DNA of 32,632 nucleotides from Acidobacteriota bacterium. GTDB lineage: Bacteria; Acidobacteriota; Terriglobia; Acidiferrales; UBA7541. The stretch is taken from NCBI GenBank assembly GCA_003223255.1, contig QHYJ01000162.1, positions 1-32,632 of the forward strand, read 5' to 3'. The translations under genes were made by a program, and so were the position numbers. Shown here one piece after another: positions 30,399 to 31,760 of this stretch. A model generated the notes under the pieces. The model did no database searches. It saw nothing but the letters and a program-made list of their open reading frames with translations, and was not told the DNA's origin. Within the stretch, counting starts at the first letter, position 1. Every line of letters begins with the position of its first letter.

Positions 30399-31196
30399 CT
30401 ACTGGCTGCCCGCTGCGGGAGTCCCCGCTTTCAGAATGGAGGTCGCAGCAGCAAAGATTTGGGCCGCACTTGAGTTGGGAATTTCCTTCTCACCTTTTAG
30501 CCAGTGTTGAATGTAGCCACGGCAAAAGTCCGCGCCTTCAAGGCCCAATGTTTCGCAGCAGATTAGAGCGACAGATTCGGCCTCGACCTCGCGGATATGC
30601 TTGGCGGTCTGTTCGCTGTCCACGAGTTTTTCCGATGTGGTGTGCCCGAGGACAATGTGGCCGATCTCGTGGAATGTGGTCTTATGGGGGAGTGCAGCAA
30701 AGGGATTTACAGAGATTTCGCGCCCGTTCGCAAAGCCTTGAATGTTGCCATTCATTTCGTCAAACGGCGTGCGCGTGATGTTCAGTGCTCGGAGCGCTGT
30801 GTCGGTGTCAAAGCCCGGAATCGGTGGAATGTGAGTCTCTTCTCCCTCGGTTTGCGCCAGCACAAACCAATAAGCCCGAAACCGGAAGGCATAGCGTGGT
30901 TGTGATTCTGTCGGCTCCTCTTGGACGCTATCGGTGTGTGCACTTTTGAACGGCATGGGCATGCAGAGAGTAATTCCGGTTTCCCCTTTGCGTACTTGCC
31001 GTTTCCGTCCGAGCCACGCCCGATAGGTGTTGAGCGGTCCAGGCTGCAAGTTGCGGCGGATGCACTGTTCGAGCGCAAGAAGTGCATTCCCGAGGCTGTA
31101 GTTATGAAACGCGGTGTAGGCTTCGAGCACTCGGCCTGGCTTTTCAACCGCATCCCGCAGTAGTTCTCCCCAAGTGGTGTGTTGTCTTTCTGTCAT
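30399..31196 (-). CDS. ArdC-family antirestriction protein with zincin domain
   Basis: From ATG 31196 (GAGGAGAACAAA upstream) the protein has 265 residues; a start at 31229 would add a non-conserved tail. Residues 1-120 match the ArdC N-terminal (DUF1738-like) single-strand-DNA-binding domain: NYSLGNALLALEQ, YRAWLGRKRQVRKGETGI and YAFRFRAYWFVLAQTEGEE. The second half is the zincin-like metallopeptidase with HEIGH (176-180) and a downstream EVEAESVA (Glu205, Glu207) that gives the third zinc ligand. ArdC proteins are carried by plasmids, integrative elements and phages and protect incoming DNA from restriction. Here it is the best-preserved element gene among many fragments, and it follows a long noncoding leader with large inverted repeats. 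Confidence 0.86.
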   Translation of the reverse strand: MTERQHTTWGELLRDAVEKPGRVLEAYTAFHNYSLGNALLALEQCIRRNLQPGPLNTYRAWLGRKRQVRKGETGITLCMPMPFKSAHTDSVQEEPTESQPRYAFRFRAYWFVLAQTEGEETHIPPIPGFDTDTALRALNITRTPFDEMNGNIQGFANGREISVNPFAALPHKTTFHEIGHIVLGHTTSEKLVDSEQTAKHIREVEAESVALICCETLGLEGADFCRGYIQHWLKGEKEIPNSSAAQIFAAATSILKAGTPAAGSQ

Positions 31197-31255
31197 TTTG
31201 TTCTCCTCTTTCCTCTTTTTTTCGAGCACGATTTCCGCTTGAAAAAAGAAGCAAA

Positions 31256-31378
31256 TGCCCTTCCTGGCGGTCCCCGACGCTTTCCCGCTCGCGCTGTCAA
31301 GGCCGCGCGGTTTGCGTTCACGGACGGCCTTGACAGAACAAGCGGGCGGGAAAGCGCACTCTTACGGCAGGAAGGGCA
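31256..31378. repeat. Triple-nested inverted repeat upstream of ardC
   Basis: Three perfect inverted pairs are nested: TGCCCTTCCTG (31256-31266) with CAGGAAGGGCA (31368-31378); GCTTTCCCGC (31279-31288) with GCGGGAAAGC (31346-31355); CTGTCAAGGCCG (31294-31305) with CGGCCTTGACAG (31325-31336). The spacers between arms differ on the two sides (12 and 5 bases left; 9 and 12 right). Together they could form a cruciform or a long RNA hairpin, 60 bases upstream of the ardC start on the minus strand. Confidence 0.85.
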
Positions 31379-31492
31379 GAAGAAAAAGCGAGTCCCTGTC
31401 TTTCCTTGCTGCTTGCTGTGAGGGGCGAATTTATGACGACCTACCATTGACTCGCGAAAGACCCAAGCATAGTAGGCGAACAAAAAGCGAAT

Positions 31493-31545
31493 TGTCAAGG
31501 CCGCGGAAATACGTGAAATACGTGTCTAGCGGTTTTGGCCGCTAG
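31493..31545. repeat. Third copy of the inner arm, 9-bp tandem repeat and palindrome
   Basis: TGTCAAGGCCGCG at 31493-31505 is identical to 31295-31307 inside the nested repeat. It is followed at once by AAATACGTG twice in tandem (31507-31515, 31516-31524) and then by a perfect inverted repeat, CTAGCGG (31526-31532) and CCGCTAG (31539-31545). Such a cluster resembles protein-binding sites at element ends or origins; function is unproven. Confidence 0.7.
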
Positions 31546-31550
31546 CAGCC

Positions 31551-31760
31551 AATGAAATCGTTGCGGCTGTCGAGCTTCAGACCGATGTGCTTGTTGTGGA
31601 AAATGAGCAGGAAGTTTTCAGCGCCATGATTGCCCTCAAGGATGGACGGGGGTCTTTCGCCGATGCTGTCATCGCAGCGCTCGGCACGAGAGCGGGCTGT
31701 TCCTACACCTTGACATTCGACCAGAAGGCGCTGTGGCTTCCAGGTTTCGAGTTTCCTTGA
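31551..31760 (+). pseudogene. VapC-type PIN toxin, C-terminal remnant
   Basis: The plus strand encodes NEIVAAVELQTDVLVVENEQ, then EVFSAMIALKDGRGSFADAV and IAALGTRAGCSYTLTFDQKA, ending LPGFEFP and a stop at 31758-31760. This matches the C-terminal half of PIN toxins: FADxLIAALxxxAGCxxTLTFDxKAxxLPGF. The two late catalytic Asp residues are kept (FAD, TFD). The N-terminal half with the first Asp is absent, replaced by the repeat cluster above, and there is no start codon. Confidence 0.78.

Follow-up and report, generated by a model that had tools for sequence, protein, structure and literature searches.

A covarying hairpin family directly before ardC and other likely entry genes of Acidobacteriota, and its possible role as a single-strand leader

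The ardC hairpin and its flank

The window, i.e., the whole stretch of DNA that was analyzed (32,632 nucleotides of contig QHYJ01000162.1 from an Acidobacteriota bacterium), carries an ardC-like gene on the minus strand (30399-31196). Its ATG lies at 31196, with an in-frame GTG upstream at 31229, and the longer form of the product matches PF08401 (ArdcN) with an E-value of 2.3e-7. About 50 bases separate the ATG from a conserved hairpin unit (31248-31380), which was delimited by alignment with relatives and is given here on the minus, ardC-sense strand; the proposed folded strand is the opposite one.

An initial annotation described this unit as three nested inverted pairs of 11, 10 and 12 bases, and all three were found. 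The 11-base arms (31256-31266 with 31368-31378) form the outer stem, the 10-base arms (31278-31287 with 31347-31356) lie in a middle stem of about 31278-31292 and 31342-31356, and the 12-base arms (31294-31305 with 31325-31336) form the inner stem; together they make up a single imperfect hairpin. Folding of the strands as DNA and RNA, which had been proposed as a check, gave structure well beyond dinucleotide shuffles: -50.2 kcal/mol and a z-score of -7.7 for the plus strand as DNA, and z-scores of -7.9 (plus) and -5.9 (minus) as RNA, with no shuffle matching the fold in any of the three runs. The nested repeat is genuine and would hardly have arisen by chance. Its apical loop (31306-31324, minus strand) is shortened and lacks the GNA mini-hairpin segment of the other 41 of 42 copies described below. 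Directly past the outer stem region is a T-rich, terminator-like tract (31234-31247, minus strand; 11 of 14 bases are T in the sense direction). The window contains no tRNA or Rfam element (Rfam 15, no match at gathering score).

Farther upstream of ardC, past the hairpin, lies a minus-strand promoter, TTGACA-N18-TACTAT with a TTCGCTTTTTGTTCGCC box (31469-31498). One hairpin arm had been said to recur in this area, and TGTCAAGGCCGCG is indeed repeated at 31493-31505, these two exact occurrences being the only ones in the genome; the second is the promoter's -35 region and falls outside the conserved unit. A second hairpin at 31493 was rejected, as the site is the -35 part of the promoter read from 31498 to 31469. 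The tandem repeat and 7-bp palindrome annotated nearby are both present (AAATACGTG twice in the window, beyond the hairpin; CTAGCGG-N6-CCGCTAG at 31526-31545) and again lie outside 31248-31380. The truncated VapC gene was also correctly recognized: the C-terminal half of a PIN (VapC-like) domain (31545-31760, plus strand) starts directly after the palindrome. This remnant, which covers positions 53-113 of the PF01850 profile with an E-value of 0.0017, under the gathering score, belongs to the flank, outside the element.

By eye, the window promoter and its box resemble the lexA promoter of the same genome. A LexA-type promoter, TTGACAATTCGCTTTTTGTTCGCCTACTAT, is shared between the window (31469-31498, minus strand), a DinB-like gene in related species and, in a looser form, the genome's own lexA (loci L003, 1505-1550, and L184). 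The promoter sequence is shared with that of a putative DinB-family gene (named by eye) in related species; a DinB-like gene start is visible in 8 of 9 rows among the matches listed (14 loci given). The TTCG-N6-GTTCG spacing is possibly the SOS box of this lineage, and LexA may bind at 31469-31498; among the papers listed in a literature search, none had a LexA motif of Acidobacteria as its subject by title. Many short matches to 31469-31500 in genomes of the genus represent a different element. The hairpin-promoter stretch (31396-31500) has relatives of 76-79% identity elsewhere with no adjoining hairpin (L048 278-381, L037 1084-1157), so hairpin-ardC and the promoter have separate histories. 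When ICE proteins were tried across the whole window, none except ArdC was found. Since its apex is deleted, the window copy, which has this LexA-type promoter upstream, is probably a decayed relic or a re-wired example.

A family of hairpins and the covariation of its stems

When the window DNA was searched against 36 genomes from the genus, most of the hairpin was covered at 28 places, counting the window itself; relatives are 68-85% identical. Of 29 aligned copies, we kept 27 in alignment A1, which omits the partial L057 and L065, and then 21 in A2, which further omits five copies that lack the outer 3' arm and one member of an identical pair. The aligned copies are 133-154 bases long and have one stem. 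A covariance model built from the 21 copies had matches, some of them weak, in 26 of 95 genomes of the order, representing 4 of 17 genera. In total, 42 copies were placed on contigs of this order, 37 of them at full length, and ten further copies with the same core and other outer stems occur in another family of the class (f4). In a sample of 396 genomes across the phylum, matches at 1e-6 came from 3, one of which was the own genome. A pattern for the apex (at most two mismatches) was found in 26 of 399 genomes sampled from the class, and the reversed pattern in none. The ArdC relatives derive from MAGs of Acidobacteria or Candidatus Acidiferrales. No sequence match to the window region was detected in 72,556 plasmid records, F included, and a consensus-like hairpin copy gave a single 36-base match (E 0.03) in the plasmid records. 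An apex 20-mer had no exact match in viral_contigs, where a viral origin was tried, nor did a hairpin 22-mer in genome_contigs, from which the own genome may be left out.

The stems covary. The 21-copy alignment, in which no fitting to the model was involved, has two-sided changes in 11 of 38 pairs (34 cells). The corresponding numbers for 37 matches (from 34 loci, E-values up to 1e-20) are 15 of 38 pairs and 75 cells, in an alignment that was fitted to the model and leans towards the structure. The covariation score of the 37 matches was reached by none of 500 shuffles, and slid structures scored far below. Further pair types did not rise above shuffles, 388 of 500 reaching the value for the 21-copy and 121 of 500 for the 37-match alignment. 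The 37 matches show no unpaired cell in the inner helix. Judged by these substitutions, the hairpin structure is under selection.

Two variants were observed. A second hairpin in the own genome (L039, G000:C356:55403-55557) lies at a contig end, adjoins a transposase-like ORF (read by eye), has a doubled GCGAAGC apex and lacks the outer 3' arm. In several loci, e.g., L164 and L166, a small second hairpin is visible by eye between the main hairpin and the start codon, with GCGCCGC/GCGGCGC arms and compensated variants of these.

Downstream genes and conjugative context

Lack of the nested structure upstream of related ardC genes, with no covariation in its arms, had been named as the outcome that would speak against the annotation; the structure is present there and its arms covary. 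A comparison of relatives that carry ardC placed it 5' of ardC in 10 of the 37 full copies and before two other gene kinds in 22. These are genes for KQPAF (17 copies), a label coined here for a 96-residue plasmid protein with no Pfam family, and for a WGR/ligase-like protein (5 copies); the remaining 5 copies are followed by none of the three. Thirty-two of 37 full copies thus stand directly 5' of such a gene, all 32 in the sense orientation, and the gene matches start 19-70 bases past the hairpin. A ParB gene comes after these in 11 of 17 KQPAF cases and 2 of 10 ArdC cases, and a DNA polymerase IV gene in 3 of 5 WGR cases. KQPAF relatives occur on 172 plasmid records, of which 81 are conjugative, 28 mobilizable and 63 non-mobilizable. 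KQPAF is fused to VirB11 on G024:C5 and G074:C68.

Several contigs with hairpins also encode conjugation machinery. Homologues of VirB4, VirB6, VirB8, VirB9, VirB10, VirB11, TraD and a RepB-type primase are all present on G024:C4, G025:C17 and G034:C109, and G024:C4 additionally has PolB, ParA and a tyrosine integrase. On each of G025:C17, G074:C21 and G088:C102, a pair of hairpins facing the same way stands before two operons that are 11-15 kb apart. The type IV set of G088:C102, which is accompanied by a PF03432 relaxase, is distantly related, so the hairpin marks operons of the entry type on conjugative elements of more than one kind. The PF03432 relaxase was found in 1 of 6 genomes searched; TrwC relaxase was found in 4 of 7, with no match on a contig with a placed hairpin. 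At loci L102 and L103 (G024:C4), a conjugative-looking element carries VirB genes, TraD, a primase and an integrase, and its genome gave neither a TrwC nor a PF03432 match. In three further loci (L049, L115 and L106, on G004:C144, G004:C115 and G030:C46), hairpins are cut at the same inner point and joined to the same site inside traD, as if by a repeated or inherited precise deletion.

In f4, an ArdC-like gene follows the hairpin in 3 of 10 copies: on G439:C12 (PF08401, E 8e-27), in G712 (PF08401, E 2e-5) and in G488, where the assignment comes from a 30% tblastn match to the window ArdC alone and a short fragment had no Pfam match. No ArdC-like gene was seen with the other seven copies.

By analogy with the leading region of F and from the known roles of ArdC, the downstream genes are likely "entry" genes. 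ArdC is required in recipients and not in donors, according to the accessible text of PMC7213743.

The folded strand and possible functions of the hairpin

Three features bear on which strand folds. The first is mispairs. Counted on the sense strand over 37 copies, G-T occurs in 40 cells and A-C in 28. The apical pair accounts for 29 of the G-T cells, which leaves 11 G-U cells elsewhere against 28 A-C. The mispairs thus do not suggest the G-U excess expected for a sense RNA, nor do they offer a decisive DNA signature. The second is folding energy, compared in 22 of the 27 aligned copies. DNA parameters give the antisense strand the better fold in 21 of 22, an excess over shuffles that is small (mean z -1.16); with RNA parameters it is favored in 22 of 22, by a mean of -9.0 versus -7.7 kcal/mol in shuffles. 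A strong strand bias of folding was rejected, as shuffles account for most of the RNA-parameter difference.

The third feature is the apex, the most conserved part of the hairpin, which is kept in 41 of 42 placed copies, the window being the exception. On the antisense strand, 40 of these 41 apices carry the G-N-A triloop of a 7-mer mini-hairpin (G020:C5 reads GGG). With f4 the set grows to 52 copies (42 plus 10), related to one another so that counts are not independent, and the triloop is present in 50 of 51 apices. The 7-mers are GCGAAGC (27), GCGCAGC (14), GCGAAGT (3), GCGGAGC (3) and, once each, ACGGAGT, GTGAAAC, GCGGGGC and ACGAAGC. The middle triloop base is A in 32, C in 14 and G in 5 apices (entropy 1.26 bits, versus 0-0.40 at the other eight positions). 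Of the closing pairs, the inner is Watson-Crick in all 51 apices and the outer in 47, and a closing pair is changed on both sides in two copies. The apex-locating pattern already requires the base opposite the G of G-N-A, and 7 of the 10 f4 copies were found by the apex pattern; the 42-copy count is therefore the fairer one. GNA loops with G-C closing pairs are described as extraordinarily stable in DNA in the accessible part of PMC4686876; a standard DNA model of two intact copies gave minimum-energy folds without the mini-hairpin. Overall, the apex is a sharper strand clue than mispairs or energies, and its GNA pattern makes sense on the antisense strand as DNA.

Promoter signals were scored within 200 bases upstream of the 32 full copies that have a gene. 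The best score exceeded 98% of shuffles in the window, 95% in G018:C72 and 90% in G031:C40. With a mean z of -0.27 across the 32, an upstream sigma-70 promoter as a rule was rejected; the window alone stands out, and the other 31 have none that clearly exceeds shuffles. The inner helix itself contains TTGACA or TTGACG; TTGACA is not universal, and some f4 copies have GTAAA for GTCAA on the 5' side. At a spacing of 15-19 from TTGAC in the folded arm, no -10-like hexamer exceeded 2 of 6 matches in any of the 32 copies. Since the same scoring finds no strong promoter in Frpo1 and Frpo2 of F either, the missing -10 weighs little.

What is established is a covarying family with a conserved apex and fixed orientation, close before ardC, KQPAF-ParB and WGR-PolIV genes. 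Our leading interpretation, to which we give slightly less than an even chance, is that the copies serve as a common regulatory leader for an establishment (entry) regulon on conjugative elements of Acidobacteriota, and act as Frpo-like single-strand promoters. The element would arrive as single-stranded DNA, and the template strand for the entry genes would fold into the hairpin, the GNA mini-hairpin at its tip aiding folding and resisting SSB. The stem, with its TTGACA or TTGACG inner helix, would recruit RNA polymerase. Entry genes would thus be expressed before second-strand synthesis, and they would be silent afterwards. Counting against this interpretation are the missing -10-like hexamer, the terminator-like T-tract, the small margin of antisense folding over shuffles and, in the Bacillus plasmid pLS20 discussed below, transfer of the non-template strand. 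A single-strand promoter for ardC was among the functions first suggested; the position before ardC and the covarying arms agree with it, but the association is wider, extending to two other gene kinds.

In F, Frpo hairpins precede entry genes, as given in the accessible parts of PMC9849209 and PMC11541004. In both systems, hairpins recur in front of the entry operons of conjugative elements, and anti-restriction and ParB-family genes lie nearby; the F operons are ssb-...-ParB-psiB and ygeAB, and the comparison extends to the Frpo/ssi sites of ColIb-P9. In Frpo1 and Frpo2, too, the template strand folds better than the sense strand. As in Frpo/ssi, a stable ssDNA stem-loop lies before entry genes; of the -35 and -10 in the stem, only the -35-like TTGACA/TTGACG is found. 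Unlike Frpo, the hairpin has a T-tract past the stem, lies much closer to the start codon and has no plasmid sequence match for the window region.

If the single-strand leader interpretation is true, hairpin control of entry genes would be a recurring solution. The family is unrelated to Frpo in sequence and was recognized by covariation, whereas new single-strand promoter candidates have been sought by Frpo similarity or -35/-10 boxes (accessible text of PMC11541004), and in the available parts of the papers cited here such promoters otherwise come from enterobacterial plasmids. None of the titles listed in a literature search, among them 15 of 51 on the phylum together with conjugative elements, dealt with single-strand promoters of Acidobacteria. 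The core motif and covariance model provide a marker for entry regulons and their anti-defense genes in a phylum that has been seen mainly through metagenomes, and make it testable whether a GNA tip on the template strand keeps a promoter hairpin folded under SSB in conjugation.

A more elaborate version, which we consider possible and rather doubtful, is a sequence-unrelated Acidobacteriota entry switch: an N4-like, GNA-nucleated template-strand promoter with no standard -10 that is also a resident-state terminator. The same repeat could then terminate transcription in resident DNA and act as a single-strand promoter on entry. The N4 virion RNA polymerase uses a template-strand DNA hairpin whose three-base loop has a sheared G:A pair and stays intact under SSB (accessible part of PMC4496689). 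A GNA-type triloop on a template-strand hairpin would be common to both, but N4 hairpins have short stems and are read by a phage polymerase.

Alternatively, the hairpin may be solely an RNA terminator or attenuator: read-through transcripts would fold, the U-rich tail would stop RNA polymerase, and some signal would release the genes. We give this less than an even chance, but it is a strong rival with a close precedent. EGeRS1 of Bacillus pLS20 comprises GC-rich inverted repeats immediately ahead of the RBS in five operons, that of ardC among them, blocks read-through in the native orientation only and has no promoter; the transferred pLS20 strand is the non-template strand (all from the accessible text of PMC8708921). 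Here, too, a conserved structure without a sigma-70 promoter lies directly before several establishment operons and their start codons. The likeness, between Bacillota and Acidobacteriota hosts, is by description, not sequence, and EGeRS1 is 420-750 bp with several stems, whereas the present unit is one hairpin of 133-154 bases. At least 8 T in the 14 bases past the stem were found in 34 of 37 full copies (mean 65% versus 21% around), and a mirror A-tract in none of 37, which is suggestive of a directional, terminator-like tract. However, by eye this tract is not evident in f4 copies, a terminator pattern search of the window (loops 3-8 only) found none, and a promoter that could supply a leader transcript within 200 bases occurs in the window only. 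The scarcity of sense-strand G-U outside the apical pair and the apical GNA pattern, which fits the other strand as DNA, also argue against it. Of the functions suggested initially, the structured RNA holds up as a candidate, as does the single-strand promoter for ardC.

Other suggestions fared less well, and an element end or a transfer or replication origin gained little support. It is improbable that the hairpin is primarily an IncQ ssi-like single-strand initiation site, at which a RepB-type primase would start the complementary strand and the location in front of genes would be of secondary importance. The same contigs carry genes for a RepB-type primase and PolB, and Frpo reportedly also primes replication, going by the title of Masai and Arai 1997, but this would not account for a hairpin so closely tied, in one orientation, to the start codons of three kinds of gene. 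A mobile or recombination element (MITE, REP or attC-like) that stands before these genes by chance is very improbable: the traD junctions, which fall at corresponding points of hairpin and gene, and the transposase-like ORF beside the G000:C356 copy would fit it, but orientation and distance are fixed before the same three genes, and genomes contain about six or fewer strong matches.
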